From positions 1-58,390 of the forward strand of contig JAYEID010000014.1 in assembly GCA_034659915.1 (NCBI GenBank): a stretch of 58,390 bases of DNA. The letters run 5' to 3'. The position numbers and the translations under genes are program-made. Shown one piece after another: positions 1,840 to 35,742 of the stretch. The notes under the pieces are model-generated. The model was given only the letters and a program-made list of their open reading frames with translations, was not told the origin of the DNA and did no database searches. Every line of letters starts with the position of its first letter. Position 1 is the first letter of the stretch. Source of the stretch: Patescibacteria group bacterium. Its GTDB lineage: Bacteria; Patescibacteriota; WWE3; JAUXAW01; JAYEID01.

Positions 1840-2970
1840 TCAACCTTCCAAACCAAGTTCTATTACCCTCGAACTATGCAATAAACCTGAGTTAAGCAGG
1901 TCTGGTTCTGCTGAAGTAACTAAAGATTGCTGACGAGGAAGCACCTGCAAAACTTTTTTCCGGTGTTTTTGGTCAAGCTCAGAAAAAATATCATCCAAAA
2001 GTAAAATTGGTTGCCTTTCTGTGTTTTGGGAAACTACAGCTAGCTCTGCTAAAAATAACGCTATCACAGCTTCTCTTTGCTCGCCGCGAGAACCGTAGAT
2101 AGACAAGTCTCGAAGTTTGCTACCATTCACCTCTGAAAAATTAGGACGGACAAACAGAAAATCATCCCGGTGTGGGCCCCACAAACTTGTGGCTCGGGAA
2201 ATTTCTTCAGCTAAACGGTCACCATAAACATCTTCTCGCAAGCGAGAAGGGTCGTACCTAAGTTGGATCTCCCAACCCAAGTTCTCCAACTCTCTGTTCA
2301 ATAAACCAATCAGATGTTCCCTTTTCTGAAACAGAACTTTTCCCAAAGAAAAAAGTTTTTTATCCCAAAAGTGAAGTCTCTTCTTCGGCACGTCAAATTC
2401 TTTTATCTGCCAAAGCACCTTATTTCGATTACGGACAATCTTGTCATACTCCTTTAGAGATCGGTAATACTTGTAATCTAATGAAGACAAAACCCTATCC
2501 AAATAATCACGACGAACACTAGGGCTGCCGAGAATTAAATTCAAACTCTCAGGGCAAAAAACAACTGTTCGCAGCTTATTTTGAAAATCTGATTTAGATT
2601 TTTCTATCTTGTCTACTTTAAAAACCTTACGAGTAGCCCCCTCACATTTTTCAAGAAAAACTTCAAACTTAGTAGCAACTGAATCAGCAGCCACTTCACT
2701 CGAAACTGAAAAATCCACCCCTACTTCAGGAGGCTTATACTCAAAATTAACCCAACCTTCAACCCGAGCCCATTGTTTCCCAAACAGTATAAGCTCCTCA
2801 CCCACAGTAGCCCGCAAGGGTTCGCCTTGAGACAATAAATAAATAGCCTCCAGAAGGTTAGTCTTACCTGCAGTATTAGGACCCACAATTACAGTAACAT
2901 CGGGATCAAAGGAAAAAGATTTTCCCCCATAGTTTCTAAATTGAGTAAGAACTACTTCTTGCAAAAACAT
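1840..2970 (-). CDS. recF: DNA replication/repair protein RecF
   Basis: 376 aa, the usual RecF length. Walker A is GPNTAGKT (residues 30-37), the ABC signature region is SRGEQREAVIALFLAEL, and Walker B is ILLLDDIFSELD. The N-terminal LTQFRNY is the typical RecF strand. RecF is an SMC-like ATPase that helps load RecA at single-strand gaps together with RecO and RecR. Unusually for bacteria, it is not next to dnaN or gyrB but between mutM and thpR, giving a DNA-repair-flavoured run (mutM, recF). It ends in TGA, one of the proofs that TGA is a stop here. Confidence 0.95.
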   Translation of the reverse strand: MFLQEVVLTQFRNYGGKSFSFDPDVTVIVGPNTAGKTNLLEAIYLLSQGEPLRATVGEELILFGKQWARVEGWVNFEYKPPEVGVDFSVSSEVAADSVATKFEVFLEKCEGATRKVFKVDKIEKSKSDFQNKLRTVVFCPESLNLILGSPSVRRDYLDRVLSSLDYKYYRSLKEYDKIVRNRNKVLWQIKEFDVPKKRLHFWDKKLFSLGKVLFQKREHLIGLLNRELENLGWEIQLRYDPSRLREDVYGDRLAEEISRATSLWGPHRDDFLFVRPNFSEVNGSKLRDLSIYGSRGEQREAVIALFLAELAVVSQNTERQPILLLDDIFSELDQKHRKKVLQVLPRQQSLVTSAEPDLLNSGLLHSSRVIELGLEG

Positions 2971-3019
2971 GTAATTAACAAAGCTAATAATACGGGTCTA
3001 TAGCAAGACAAGCACAAGT

Positions 3020-3835
3020 TTATCCTTGTTGACAATGAGGACAGAAAAACGTACTCCTGCCCCCCACCTTAATTCGTTTTATCTTACCACCGCAACGGGA
3101 GCACGTTTCCCCCGCCCTTCCGTAAACTTTAAAATAACGCTGATACTTCCCCTTCCTACCATAAGCATCTCGATACCACTGATCAGAAGCACCGCCAGTC
3201 TCCATTCCTTCTTTTAGTACTTGTTCCAAAGATTTATAAAGGTTTTCAATCTGGGAATCTGTCAGTTGTTTAGCCTTTTTCTCGGGATTTATTTTGGCAA
3301 GAAAAAGCGCATCATTTGCATAAATATTTCCCACTCCTGCTATCTTCTTTTGATCCATTAAAAGGTTCTTTACTGCTGCCCCACTGTTGGAAACAATTTT
3401 CTTAAACTTTTTTAAAGTCAAATCTTTAAAAGGTTCTGGTCCGTAGTCATTTAAAATCTCCTCTACAGTCTGGTTATTTGCTAACTTTATATAGCCAAAC
3501 TTCCGCGCACTTGCAAAACGCAATTCTTTACCTTTTGGTAATTTAAAAATGACTGAAACATATTTATCCTCTGGATCTGATTCGTCCCGAAAAAGCAATC
3601 TTCCTGACATCCGAAGATGGCACAAAAGATTTTTGGAGCCAGAAAGGCGGAAAATAAGCAGTTTTGCCCTTCTTCCAACTTTTTCAAACTTCTCCCCCAC
3701 CACAACATCCCGCACCTCTTCCGGATCTGGCTTAAGAAGGCGTTCATCCTTACAAATAATTTCCCTTACCTCTAGCCCAGGAAGCTCCCTATCCAGCTCT
3801 CTTCTTATTGTCTCTACCTCAGGTAACTCTGGCAT
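3020..3835 (-). CDS. mutM: Formamidopyrimidine-DNA glycosylase
   Basis: 271 aa. The start is fixed at ATG 3835 because the mature protein must begin PELPEVETIRREL: Pro after Met is the catalytic nucleophile and the following Glu is essential. A longer frame back to 3901 would hide that Pro and overlap the upstream gene. Further landmarks are HLRMSGRL, the helix-two-turn-helix segment GVGNIYANDALFLAKI and a C-terminal four-Cys zinc finger (CSRC...CPHC). The enzyme removes oxidised purines such as 8-oxoguanine and nicks the abasic site. It lies 28 nt after the glycosyltransferase gene and 49 nt before recF. Confidence 0.95.
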   Translation of the reverse strand: MPELPEVETIRRELDRELPGLEVREIICKDERLLKPDPEEVRDVVVGEKFEKVGRRAKLLIFRLSGSKNLLCHLRMSGRLLFRDESDPEDKYVSVIFKLPKGKELRFASARKFGYIKLANNQTVEEILNDYGPEPFKDLTLKKFKKIVSNSGAAVKNLLMDQKKIAGVGNIYANDALFLAKINPEKKAKQLTDSQIENLYKSLEQVLKEGMETGGASDQWYRDAYGRKGKYQRYFKVYGRAGETCSRCGGKIKRIKVGGRSTFFCPHCQQG

Positions 3836-9139: not shown

Positions 9140-10015
9140 ATGGCTAAATTACGAGAAGCCCGAAAAGAGTTCATAAACTACCTGGAAGAAAAAAATAGAG
9201 CAGAAGCAACCGTCTTGGCTTACGGAACAGACATCCGCCAACTTATAGAGTACGCTGAAGAGGAAGAAGATAAGGAAAACCCAGATGAGTTAACTTACGA
9301 AGACCTTACAGGATATCTAGATGATTTTCGTGACCAAGACTACACAAAAAAATCAATTTCCCGAAAAATTAATTCTATCCGAACCTTTTTCCAATTTTTA
9401 AAAGAAAAAGGATACATAACCCAAGACCCATCTAACAAGTTAACCCACCCCAAAATTGAACCAAAGCCACCAAACATCCTTTCCGAAACTGAGTACCGCG
9501 CTCTGCGCGATGCTTGCCGCAACGACAAGCGTATGTACGCTATTGTAGAATTACTCCTTCAAACCGGAATTAGAATTGGGGAATTACGCAAAATACAGCT
9601 TCAAGATATAGAATTTTCGGAAGAAAATGGGAAAGGTGTTCTACATATCCGACCTTCCCATCGAAAGCCAGCACGAAACATTCCTCTTAACCAGCGGGCA
9701 CAGGACGCAATTAAAGAATACTTAAAGGTACGCCCAGAAGCAAACACAGATATCCTCTTTGTTACCCGCCCTGGAAATCCCTACCTAATAAGAAATATCA
9801 GAGCTGCCATGAAAAGATACTTCAAAAAAGCTGGTTTACCTGACGCTACTATTAATGACCTCCGACACACATTTATTGCCCACCAACTTAAACAAGGTGC
9901 AGATGTTTCATACATTTCAAAAATTGTTGGTCACAAGAGATTAACCTCTACTGAAAAGTACCTTCAATACATAGAAAGACCAGAGGAAGAGAATAATGAA
10001 CTAGAAGAGCTTTAA
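9140..10015 (+). CDS. Tyrosine recombinase/integrase (Xer-like)
   Basis: 291 aa, the usual XerC/XerD length. It has an N-terminal core-binding SAM-like domain (about 1-100) and a C-terminal catalytic domain. Catalytic residues visible are Arg145 (TGIRIGELR), a Lys near 176, Arg242 in DLRHTF, His265 in GHKR and the nucleophile Tyr274. The His of the usual HxxR box is Asn239 (INDLRH). It could be the chromosomal dimer-resolving recombinase, since CPR genomes often have one Xer, or an element-borne integrase, since it neighbours a GIY-YIG gene and tRNA-Ile. Its strong promoter suggests steady expression. Confidence 0.88.
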   Translation: MAKLREARKEFINYLEEKNRAEATVLAYGTDIRQLIEYAEEEEDKENPDELTYEDLTGYLDDFRDQDYTKKSISRKINSIRTFFQFLKEKGYITQDPSNKLTHPKIEPKPPNILSETEYRALRDACRNDKRMYAIVELLLQTGIRIGELRKIQLQDIEFSEENGKGVLHIRPSHRKPARNIPLNQRAQDAIKEYLKVRPEANTDILFVTRPGNPYLIRNIRAAMKRYFKKAGLPDATINDLRHTFIAHQLKQGADVSYISKIVGHKRLTSTEKYLQYIERPEEENNELEEL

Positions 10016-10026
10016 TTGTTGTCTTC

Positions 10027-10283
10027 TTATCCTTCCAAAAAATCTTTTAACATCTTTCGCAAAGTCCTCCTCCCGTAACCAGACTTCAAATACTTCTCGA
10101 ATCTTTCCGCATCTGATTTCAAAGGAAGTGCTATATAACAAATCAATTGGTAGGGTCTATGCTGATTTGTATAGCGGGATTTTCCATCGTTGTGCTCTTT
10201 TACCCGTTTAGCCAATTTAGCTGTAGATCCAATATACAGGGGGAATAATCTTTTAAACTTCTCAAAACGTAAACGTAATACAC
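10027..10283 (-). pseudogene. GIY-YIG nuclease domain protein, frameshifted
   Basis: Read from GTG 10283 the N-terminus is YYVYVLRSLKDYSP. The rest (LYIGSTAKLAKRVKEHNDGK...FEKYLKSGYG) lies in another frame. The two halves join if one C is added to the run of five C (plus strand G 10239-10243), giving a complete domain of about 86 aa with both the GIY-like YVYVL and the YIG motif. Either one base was lost or there is a sequencing error in the homopolymer. Single-domain GIY-YIG proteins resemble the UvrC nuclease or homing nucleases. It lies between the recombinase gene and tRNA-Ile. Confidence 0.8.
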
Positions 10284-10332
10284 CAGGTAACTACGAGGTA
10301 TTATACAAAACTAAAATTGGCAAGGCCACGTT

Positions 10333-10431
10333 AAATTCGAAGGGACGTGAAATCCCTTGCGGGATTAACGTCCCACTGTGAAAATCAACGAATCGTTTTC
10401 GGACTACGTCCTCACCTCTTCGAATTTTCAC
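10333..10431. repeat. Nested inverted repeats between GIY-YIG remnant and tRNA-Ile
   Basis: An outer pair AAATTCGAA/TTCGAATTT (10333-10341 and 10419-10427) encloses a nested hairpin GGGACGT/ACGTCCC (10342-10348, 10368-10374) with inner arms AATCCC/GGGATT. A further pair GTGAAAAT/ATTTTCAC spans 10378-10431. The block ends 2 nt from the tRNA-Ile CCA. Confidence 0.75.
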
Positions 10432-10432
10432 G

Positions 10433-10509
10433 TGGTGGGCCTGCCTGGATTCGAACCAGGGACATCCATCTTATAAGGATGGCGCTCTAAACCACTGAGC
10501 TACAGGCCC
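10433..10509 (-). tRNA. tRNA-Ile (UAU)
   Basis: Full cloverleaf on the minus strand: acceptor GGGCCTG/CAGGCCC, D-stem GCTC/GAGC, anticodon arm CCATC CTTATAA GATGG, T-arm CCTGG TTCGAAT CCAGG, A73 and encoded CCA (10435-10433). The anticodon UAU reads AUA directly. Most bacteria instead use a CAU tRNA modified to lysidine. A palindrome CCACGCTCAGCGTGG lies 11 nt from its 5' end (10521-10535). Confidence 0.93.
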
Positions 10510-33497: not shown

Positions 33498-33734
33498 TTA
33501 GATTAGATGTTTGTTTCTAAAAGCTACCCCTGAACCTGTTTTGAGATAGGCTTCAAATGATTCTGCTTTTTCTTTCGATTCAAAAGCTGTATAGGAAACT
33601 AACCGGCAAGGTAAAAAATTCTTAGTAGAGGGGTTCTTGCCAGATTGATGCTCTTCCAATCTTCTATCAAGATCATATGTTGAACCGGTATAGTAATCTC
33701 CGTTGGAAAGGTTGAGGATATAAACGTAGTGCAC
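33498..33734 (-). CDS. GIY-YIG nuclease domain protein, intact
   Basis: 78 aa starting at GTG 33734. The GIY-type strand is HYVYILNLSNGDYYTGST, the helix DLDRRLEEHQSGKN supplies the conserved Arg and His, and the end is KAESFEAYLKTGSGVAF with the catalytic-type Glu. Single-domain proteins of this kind are related to UvrC and to homing nucleases. Their cellular role is not established. Downstream lie island promoter B; upstream are palindromes and a 15-bp copy of the tRNA-Asn 3' end. A TACAAT box lies 6 nt before the GTG. Confidence 0.88.
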   Translation of the reverse strand: MHYVYILNLSNGDYYTGSTYDLDRRLEEHQSGKNPSTKNFLPCRLVSYTAFESKEKAESFEAYLKTGSGVAFRNKHLI

Positions 33735-33763: not shown

Positions 33764-33842
33764 TCCTCCTTCGCTAAAGCTTCGGACGACTACGTACGGC
33801 ACTCATAATTCCTAAACTCGCAGACTCGTTAAGGAATTATGG
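33764..33842. repeat. Palindromic repeats upstream of the intact GIY-YIG gene
   Basis: The REP-like GTCCTCCTTCGCTAAAGC/GCTTCGGACGAC block (about 33766-33790) is followed by CATAATTCC/GGAATTATG arms (about 33804-33840). Related REP cores (TCCGCC..CGCTAAGGCTTCGGCGGA) occur near tRNA-Ser at 39633-39659 and near tRNA-Asn. Confidence 0.65.
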
Positions 33843-34324
33843 TGGCTCCGGGGGTGGTATACTTCGGTCAGAAGCTACGTACTACCTGAATCACCCCCTA
33901 CGACCGGAAGAGAAGTCCTTCTCCAAGGCTACGGAAACTAATCGTTTGTATGCAAAAGCTTTCCCTGACCCAGTCTTTAAATATTTTTCGAAGTTTCTTG
34001 CTTCTTTTTCCGTTTGAAAAGCACCATACCAAACTAAATCCCATGGCCTATGTGGTCTAGTAGATTCTACCTTCCCATCATTATGCAACTTGATCCTGCT
34101 TTTCAAATTATCAGTCGAACCGTAATAAAAAATAGGGGACTTTTAACTTAGAAGTATATAGCAATAAAACATTGGAAGGATGCAAAACCGTACTACATCA
34201 GAACTTCGTAATGGCATACCAGTTCGTAACGCCCTGTCGCTCAAAGCTTTGGAAGCGTAGTGGACCTTCTCAAAAAGATGGCATGCCAGTCCGTAGCCTT
34301 GGCGAAGGATGGCTCCGGGGGTGG
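33843..34324. mobile_element. Candidate small element inserted at the tRNA-Asn 3' end
   Basis: The 15-bp sequence TGGCTCCGGGGGTGG occurs at 33843-33857 and at 34310-34324, where it is the CCA, discriminator, acceptor and first T-stem bases of tRNA-Asn. Between the copies lie a GIY-YIG gene (broken) and palindromes. Direct repeats made of a tRNA 3' end are the usual footprint of site-specific insertion. The unit of about 470 bp carries no recombinase, so it would depend on another enzyme, or it is a duplication by recombination. Inference from repeat structure only. Confidence 0.5.
33891..34172 (-). pseudogene. GIY-YIG nuclease domain protein interrupted by in-frame TAA
   Basis: From ATG 34172 the frame reads MFYCYILLS, then TAA (34145-34143), then KSPIFYYGSTDNLKSRIKLHNDGK and FEKYLKTGSGKAF in the same frame. 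The two parts make one full GIY-YIG domain. The lesion is in the linker between the GIY-like strand and YYG, the same place as the frameshift in the copy at 10027-10283. Alternatively translation restarts at an internal TTG, but that would lose the first catalytic strand. Confidence 0.8.
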
Positions 34325-34618
34325 GATTCGAACCCACAACCTAGGGCTTACACTTAACCTCCTGCTTTCACAAGAGAGTGGACTATCTCATTATCATATT
34401 TCGATATGTAATCGAAACGTAGATACTGGGCACTTGAAGGTGTAATCACCTAGTCTCTGAACCTTCTCTGTTTAAGAAAACAGAGCTTGGCTGCGGATTA
34501 CCATAATCCCTATAAGGATCTTAGGCTTCCCGACAATTCACCCAGTTGGCATCTTGAAGTTTCCTTCAAGAGCTGCGCTTCTGCACAGGCCCGCGCGCTA
34601 CCATTGCGCCACCCCGGA
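34310..34618 (-). tRNA. tRNA-Asn (GUU) interrupted by a group I intron
   Basis: Exon 1 (34618-34585) begins TCCGGGGTGGCGC and ends in the anticodon loop at CTGT. Exon 2 (34350-34310) begins TAAGCCC and ends CCCCGGAG plus encoded CCA. Joined, the loop is CTGTTAA (anticodon GUU), stem GGGC/GCCC, T-arm GTGGG TTCGAAT CCCAC and acceptor TCCGGGG/CCCCGGA with G73, a good tRNA-Asn of 75 nt. The intron sits between positions 35 and 36 of the anticodon. tRNA-Asn must be spliced for the cell to read AAC/AAU unless another copy exists elsewhere. Confidence 0.92.
34351..34584 (-). ncRNA. Group I intron (234 nt) in tRNA-Asn
   Basis: P1 is CUGU|GC paired with GCGCAG, placing a U-G wobble at the 5' splice site. 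P2 is CTTGAAG-GAAA-CTTCAAG. Core elements are visible in order: P-like AATTGTCGGGAAGCC, Q AATCCGCAGCCAAG, R GTTCAGAGACTAGG, S GAGATAGTCC (P7 GACTA/TAGTC) and a terminal G. No ORF fits inside. It is ORF-less like the cyanobacterial tRNA introns, but the host tRNA and position differ. Confidence 0.92.
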
Positions 34619-34659
34619 ACGTACCTATATTTTACTTTAAATTAAGGCTAGAATCAACT

Positions 34660-35742
34660 TTAAGAAGAACTACGCAAAAAGCCTTTAAGCTTTTTTGCCC
34701 TAGAAGGGTGTCGGAGACGGCGTAGAGCTTTAGCTTCAATTTGGCGGATTCGTTCTCTGGTTACGTCAAATTCCTTTCCTACTTCTTCTAATGTTCGGGG
34801 TTTACCGTCTTCTAACCCAAACCGAAACTCCAAAACTTTCCGTTCTCTGGGATCCAATGTAGAAAGGACCTCCCGAATCTTATCTTTGAGTAAAGACTGA
34901 GAAGTAACATCTTCAGGAGAAATAACTGTTTCATCTGGCAAGAAATCCTTTAAGCGTGAGTCCCCCTCCTCACCAACTGGAGCTTCAATCGATGCCGGAC
35001 GACGACGGATTCGCTCAATCTGCCGCGCCTTTTCAATATCAACATCTTCCATTTCTGCCGCAACCTCTTCTGGTTCTGGCTCACGATCTAACTCCTGCTC
35101 AAGTTTCCTAGCTACTTTCTTATATTTATTTATAGTCTCAATCATGTGCACCGGGATTCTAATTGTCCTTGCTTGGTCTGCAATTGCTCTAGTCACTCCC
35201 TGACGAATCCACCAAGTAGCGTATGTAGAAAATTTGTAACCCTTTCTCCAATCAAACTTTTCAACAGCACGCATAAGTCCAATATTTCCTTCTTGGATAA
35301 GATCCAAAAAGGAAAGGCCCCTTCCCGTATATTTTTTTGCAATAGAAACAACCAAACGGAGATTTGCCTGAGTAAGATGCTTACGAGCTTCCTCATCTCC
35401 TTTTTCTACTCGCTTTGACAACTCAACTTCTTCTTCAGCAGTAAGAAGGGGAATTCGTCCTATTTCCCGTAAATACATCTTCACAGGATCAGAGTAACTT
35501 TCATTTTTGACATCATCTAGAGAAAGCTCCTCCTCGATTTCCTCTCGGGTTTTCTCATCTTCAGGCTCTTCGAGGACATCAATTCCCTCCTGAACAAAGA
35601 TTGTATACACGTCGTCTAAAAGCTCAATATCGTCCTCTGCCTCAGGAAATACAGCTAATACTTCTTCCTGAGTAACATAACCTTTTTCCTTACCTTCCTT
35701 TATTAATTCTTTTGCTCCAGTTTTTTCTCTTAAATCTTTCAT
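34660..35742 (-). CDS. rpoD: RNA polymerase primary sigma factor
   Basis: 360 aa. A short region 1.1-like domain (about 10-60: [26 protein letters not shown]) comes first. Region 1.2/2 follows with [21 protein letters not shown] and [14 protein letters not shown] (2.3/2.4), then region 3, and region 4 with [30 protein letters not shown]. Region 4 recognises -35 TTGACA, in line with the promoters found in this window. Its ATG overlaps the dnaG stop by 4 nt, so sigma and primase are cotranslated, the order known from the classical macromolecular-synthesis operon (minus rpsU). Confidence 0.97.

Follow-up and report, generated by a model that had tools for sequence, protein, structure and literature searches.

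Transfer RNA (tRNA) genes are targets of integrase islands, which restore tRNA 3' ends. In the phages T4 and T6, the gene for SegB, a free-standing GIY-YIG homing endonuclease, is located between phage tRNA genes, and the enzyme has been implicated in the cutting of tRNA-containing sequence and in local recombination (PMC13096335, PMC2988022). Group I introns in tRNA anticodon loops are also found with homing endonucleases, e.g. a tRNA-fMet-specific enzyme (Bonocora and Shub 2001, as cited in PMC3984707), and I-TevI represses its own synthesis by means of an uncleaved operator upstream of the nuclease open reading frame (ORF), which resembles the homing site and is poorly cleaved (PMC2988022). 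GIY-YIG genes in rRNA insertions of the Candidate Phyla Radiation (CPR) have been judged to lie outside homing, in a paper that mentions tRNA zero times (PMC11270868). In this paper we examine a 58,390-nucleotide stretch of DNA (the window), contig C14 in an 806-kb WWE3 genome of the Patescibacteria, and compare three GIY-YIG genes beside its tRNA-Asn and tRNA-Ile genes with related loci. We think it fairly probable that these genes belong to free-standing homing-type elements of Patescibacteria, which insert in tRNA genes and keep the complete tRNA.

SegB, the anticodon group I introns and the tRNA-restoring islands each share part of the features of this element. As with segB, a GIY-YIG gene lies among tRNA genes; segB, however, is known from one locus in a phage tRNA array and has no duplicated tRNA half with a hairpin, whereas the present genes are chromosomal, are associated with many isotypes and encode a single domain of about 80 amino acids. 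Insertion at the anticodon region, isotype specificity and selfish spread are shared with the group I introns, but no self-splicing intron surrounds the nuclease gene, and the tRNA is kept whole by duplication and not by splicing; the nuclease is not an intron-encoded ORF, and the group I introns lie in the neighbouring complete tRNA. Integrase islands also target a tRNA gene and duplicate a tRNA segment; the present elements, in contrast, have no integrase, are about 300 bp long and duplicate the 5' half more often than the 3' end. The CPR rRNA insertions involve the same phylum and nuclease family, and are likewise placed in RNA genes. The tRNA-linked GIY-YIG elements appear to be previously undescribed: no description was found in the open-licence literature, subscription papers and preprints being outside the search.

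Linkage of short GIY-YIG genes to tRNA genes

Eleven GIY-YIG loci other than UvrC are present in the window genome, and six of these lie within 200 bp of a tRNA gene, although only 3.0% of positions qualify (P = 3e-7). A seventh, the window gene W2 described below, adjoins a truncated tRNA copy, and four are tRNA-free. None of 12 UvrC loci, used as a control, is near a tRNA. A wider set of 147 short GIY-YIG loci, free of redundancy, was drawn from class relatives, genomes of the phylum and contigs of GTDB. In 93 of them a tRNA gene of one of 16 isotypes occurs within 200 bp, always on the same strand (93/93), and it is downstream of the nuclease in 70 of these and upstream in 23. Some locus sets were picked by similarity to one Asn-type protein; in the least biased samples the linked fraction is 22/47 (class set) and 24/40 (weaker phylum matches). 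In two Bacteroidota loci (L113 and L115) a GIY-YIG gene lies directly downstream of tRNA-Met and tRNA-Val, and no tRNA fragment was detected there.

The proteins are GIY-YIG domains by their PF01541 match and their catalytic Tyr, Tyr, Arg, His and Glu; in 13 members Y5, Y14, G16, R24 and H28 are invariant and E62 is nearly so. Purifying selection acts on the nuclease (dN 0.12-0.19, with dS 1.4-2.7 or saturated).

Anatomy, empty sites and isotype lineages

The elements measure hundreds of bases (about 300 bp) and hold one single-domain GIY-YIG gene. In the commonest form, nucleotides 1 to about 38 of the tRNA, interrupted by a hairpin, are followed by the nuclease and then by the complete tRNA; in the rarer mirror form, seen in the window, the complete tRNA comes first and a 3' tRNA fragment follows the nuclease. 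The fragment upstream of the nuclease matches the 5' half of its own tRNA better than every tRNA of another isotype in 50 of the 71 loci that have the tRNA downstream, where about one is expected, and 9 of 24 mirror-form loci have an own-tRNA 3' fragment after the nuclease. Chance origin of the repeat is ruled out by this ranking and by the exact repeat in the window. The core idea of the first-pass annotation, a family of small tRNA-targeting GIY-YIG elements, is strongly supported by the tRNA enrichment, by the far-side tRNA fragments and by the occupied and empty sister species described below; enrichment and empty sites had been set out there as checks, and neither gave the refuting outcome. 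Its statement that each unit ends at a tRNA 3' end, however, applies to a minority form, since in most linked loci the tRNA is downstream and the 5' half is duplicated, and its suggestion that the nuclease makes the target break is so far a conjecture, two of the three nuclease genes of the window being broken.

The copy has defined ends. In the 41 loci that could be aligned, it begins at the 5' end of the mature tRNA, with nucleotides 1-10 being 98-100% identical and the leader at background, and identity returns to background past nucleotide 38 or so, the end of the anticodon loop. A hairpin of variable sequence interrupts the copy, usually in the D arm, and arms of at least 6 bp were found in 50 of 56 tRNA copies as opposed to 12 of 56 matched pieces of upstream DNA. 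Several Asn elements have a nuclease frame which stops inside the following tRNA (at the TAG of GGTAGCTC), and locus L085 has broken tRNA copies on both sides. No tyrosine recombinase lies between the tRNA copies, where the space fits the GIY-YIG ORF only.

Dispersed repeats of the form TCCGCCN2-4GGCGGA occur in Patescibacteria (G240, G265, G150, G111 and others) at 6-66 per genome, compared with 0-9 for a reversed control. The TCCGCC..GGCGGA palindrome was considered as a tRNA-specific tag and rejected, as it is dispersed genome-wide; palindromes as the mobile unit are likewise unsupported.

Most of the sources are metagenome bins, in which assembly around tRNA repeats could go wrong. The same anatomy recurs, however, in dozens of independent genomes, including the single-contig G102, G200 and G229, and the open frames are under purifying selection, so that we give practically no credence to an assembly artefact.

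Seven species of genus g180 have a common cluster of tRNA-fMet, tRNA-Met and tRNA-Asp, and in these the elements are present or absent at each of the three tRNA targets. At the fMet site G240 is occupied, with GCGGGATAGAGCAATTGGCA-TCCGCCTTAGGCGGA-TCATAACC followed by the GIY-YIG gene and the complete tRNA, whereas G308, G323, G315 and G376 have a plain tRNA that is identical at 76/76 positions to the complete tRNA of G240; in G271 and G391 the anticodon loop contains a group I intron instead of the GIY-YIG element. The Asp site is occupied in G240 and G308 and empty in the other five species. At the elongator Met site, G376 has a perfect 40-nucleotide 5' half, a nuclease and the complete tRNA, and G240 has no nuclease but retains hairpin-broken copies on both sides. 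A pair of genomes in genus g59 gave no empty-site comparison, the flanks at the tRNA being non-syntenic.

These sites bear on the proposal that the nuclease is a host housekeeping enzyme of the UPF0213/YhbQ type in tRNA operons, and the tRNA copies unrelated pseudogenes. The tRNA-free family members (4 of 11 in the window genome) do look intact, as a host gene might, but sister species differ in its presence at the same tRNA, 16 isotypes are involved, inactivation is frequent, and tRNA copies with fixed boundaries occur only beside the nuclease gene; we consider the proposal very improbable.

G240 and G308 have orthologous Asp insertions. Their nucleases have diverged (the G308 frame is broken, to judge by its gap), while the main block of tRNA half and hairpin differs at two positions only, one of which mirrors an anticodon-stem change of the complete tRNA. 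Similarly, the acceptor piece and hairpin are identical in L080 and L083, the nucleases of which are 75% identical. On these alignments the tRNA half is more conserved than the nuclease in orthologous insertions, and hence the copy is presumably not junk. The acceptor 7-mer of the adjacent tRNA is matched by 15 of 15 Asn copies (11 different stems) and 7 of 7 Lys copies (7 stems), compared with 68% (Asn) and 48% (Lys) for other loci of the same isotype, although imperfect copies are under-counted because the selection step demanded a match from nucleotide 1. The match to the own acceptor may reflect local origin or concerted evolution.

The copied piece is a 5' tRNA half, from mature +1 to the anticodon loop, and in G240 and G308 the copy and the complete tRNA carry the same anticodon-stem change. 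Both would suit action on RNA: the nuclease might cut tRNA, in the manner of an anticodon nuclease or a toxin, or its expression might be controlled by an alternative fold that pairs the tRNA half with the downstream tRNA's 3' half. The adjacent tRNA, however, is not a resistant variant, as the 76/76 identity at the fMet site indicates, and insertion polymorphism and decay suit a DNA element. To our knowledge, the characterised GIY-YIG enzymes cut DNA, which also counts against this explanation, and we regard it as improbable.

On the GIY-YIG tree, which is short (86 columns) and has many unresolved forks, tRNA isotype requires 45 changes compared with 64.6 after shuffling (0/200 shuffles). 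One clade comprises 23 Asn-linked proteins from many lineages, and beside it six of the seven Lys-linked proteins also group together; nuclease lineages thus cluster by target isotype.

The tRNA-Asn and tRNA-Ile loci of the window

The features of the two loci, by position in the window, are as follows.

10027..10239, minus strand: W3, frameshifted GIY-YIG gene downstream of tRNA-Ile (domain 10069-10239, PF01541)
10433..10509, minus strand: tRNA-Ile(UAU)
33498..33734, minus strand: W2, intact GIY-YIG gene of 78 amino acids (domain 33537-33731, PF01541, 5e-14)
33804..33841, minus strand: hairpin right after the truncated tRNA copy
33843..33860, minus strand: second, truncated tRNA-Asn 3' end (15-18 bp repeat); against the region downstream of W1, the local tRNA-Asn ranks 1/24
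33891..34172, minus strand: W1, decayed GIY-YIG gene (domain 33960-34172, PF01541, E 5e-17), with an in-frame TAA after MFYCYILLS
34290..34309, plus strand: 20-bp inverted-repeat arm abutting the tRNA 3' end, with its partner arm at 33916-33935
34310..34350, minus strand: tRNA-Asn 3' exon including CCA, by match to the spliced tRNA
34351..34584, minus strand: group I intron in the anticodon, after CTGT, without an ORF (Rfam RF00028, 89 bits, 34359-34596; ends from the exon match)
34585..34618, minus strand: tRNA-Asn(GUU) 5' exon, nucleotides 1-34, a 100% match to the spliced tRNA

The tRNA-Asn(GUU) gene (34310-34618, minus strand) is single-copy and is overlooked by ARAGORN because the group I intron interrupts it; a match of the spliced sequence found no second complete tRNA-Asn in the genome. 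Downstream of it the order is W1, truncated tRNA 3' end, hairpin and W2. The 15-bp direct repeat TGGCTCCGGGGGTGG reported in the first-pass annotation is exact, with copies starting at 33843 and at 34310, and can be lengthened to 18 bp with 94% identity (33843-33860 and 34310-34327). It is the tRNA-Asn 3' end including CCA, the right copy being the 3' end of the gene itself. Inside the direct repeats the unit also contains the inverted repeat 33916-33935/34290-34309 (20 bp, 95%). The predicted folding of the truncated copy is no better than that of shuffles. The palindromes that had been described are present at 33804-33841.

The hairpin family CCATAAGATCTTAACGAG...TTATGAGTGCC occurs behind tRNA 3' ends in the window (33798-33841), in L008 (about 2718-2763) and in L009 (about 3026-3071), and hairpins resembling window 33804-33841 also follow tRNA-Thr genes elsewhere in the same genome. 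This family is possibly a tRNA terminator or trailer repeat.

PF01541 domains on the minus strand are present at all three sites where GIY-YIG genes had been noted, but only W2 is intact; W1 contains the in-frame stop, and in W3 a frameshift, read from the sequence, separates the N-terminal motif, which is out of frame. The tRNA-linked copies on contigs C18, C10 and C16 also carry stops or frameshifts, and the four tRNA-free copies are open. Broken tRNA-linked and open tRNA-free nucleases match the rise and decay that homing genes typically undergo, although bins may hold sequencing errors. For the tRNA-Ile unit (10027-10509), which had been cited as a further example, the GIY-YIG gene beside tRNA-Ile(UAU) was confirmed, but the far side of W3 yielded no tRNA fragment and the unit has no flanking repeat. 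A tyrosine-recombinase-like gene (9140-10015, plus strand) converges on the broken W3 beside tRNA-Ile.

In the sample, the sole relative from the same order is G001 (candidate division WWE3), whose C22 locus has the same sequence as JAUXAW010000002.1. Synteny of rpoD and tRNA-Asn is shared only by G000 and G001, both of which are occupied, by different elements; hence an empty counterpart of the window tRNA-Asn locus itself was not found. An arrangement of rpoD then tRNA-Asn with differing GIY-YIG elements is seen in L107 (about 2800-3314), the window (34310-35742) and L226, from WWE3 and a Levyibacteriota genome.

Group I introns are found separately in these tRNAs, in the window and in L074, L080, L081, L162, L163 and L193. 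In the tRNA-Asn genes of L074, L080, L081 and L193 the intron follows CTGT, as in the window, and adjoins a GIY-YIG element, which suggests that introns and elements compete or collaborate for one tRNA-Asn site. In L162 (1496-2307, intron of 736 bp) and L163 (minus strand, about 1241-1577, intron of about 260 bp) a group I intron splits tRNA-fMet in the anticodon loop, and these species have no GIY-YIG element at the split gene.

Proposed homing and its alternatives

The elements combine linkage to tRNA genes, strand bias, tRNA duplication with defined ends, occupied and empty sites, isotype subfamilies, purifying selection, conservation of the tRNA half and hairpin, and decay. Under the homing-type reading, the nuclease would break an unoccupied tRNA gene within or close to the anticodon region, and an occupied gene would then serve as template for recombinational repair, by which the nuclease would be copied together with a tRNA half that restores the whole gene. 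A partial second tRNA copy would be added in this way so that one complete tRNA stays, and the nuclease would later be inactivated by mutation, as may have happened in the window. The hairpin-broken copy, a target-like sequence upstream of the nuclease ORF, may by analogy with I-TevI autorepression serve as an operator or uncleaved decoy; I-TevI, unlike the present proteins, has a separate DNA-binding domain.

Several points weigh against homing of this kind. Roughly 40% of the short GIY-YIG genes lack a tRNA within 200 bp. The occupied fMet allele retains an identical intact tRNA, contrary to simple protection, and because the fMet tRNA of G240 is identical to that of its empty relatives, a nuclease recognising the tRNA gene alone should cut its own host. 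The proteins are bare catalytic domains without a DNA-binding module, their nearest solved structures being UPF0213 proteins and SLX1. Phage records yielded no copies, and viral contigs yielded weak matches only, none of them close; a phage origin was rejected on the same grounds.

The self-cutting problem of identical tRNAs in occupied and empty alleles would not arise if the nuclease recognised the hairpin or a cruciform and not the tRNA sequence, with isotype specificity coming from homologous recombination of the carried tRNA pieces with the chromosomal tRNA. The lack of a DNA-binding domain and the relationship to SLX1, which is structure-specific, would then be explained, as would the hairpin in 50 of 56 copies despite its variable sequence. 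On the other hand, TCCGCC..GGCGGA hairpins, at 6-66 copies per genome, also lie away from tRNAs, and 6 of the 56 copies have no clear hairpin; we take such structure-guided cutting to be unlikely, though it deserves to be weighed. It is also possible, if doubtful, that the elements are a new class of mobile element, in which the inserted unit would consist of the nuclease gene and an exact 5' half of the tRNA (from mature +1 to the anticodon loop) that carries a hairpin and is made anew from the local tRNA at each site. The boundaries match RNA processing rather than a target-site duplication, and an RNA or hairpin-DNA intermediate might then be involved.

The ultra-small Patescibacteria abound in small GIY-YIG genes, and as homing-type elements many of these would gain a concrete role as selfish elements of tRNA genes. 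Host tRNA genes are essential and often single-copy, and the elements would survive by keeping the tRNA whole. This is at odds with the published conclusion that GIY-YIG genes of these bacteria do not spread by homing, and it makes group I introns and GIY-YIG elements joint occupants of the same tRNA genes. The family would also provide dozens of natural nucleases, isotype-specific and about 80 residues long, the targeting of which is directly testable.
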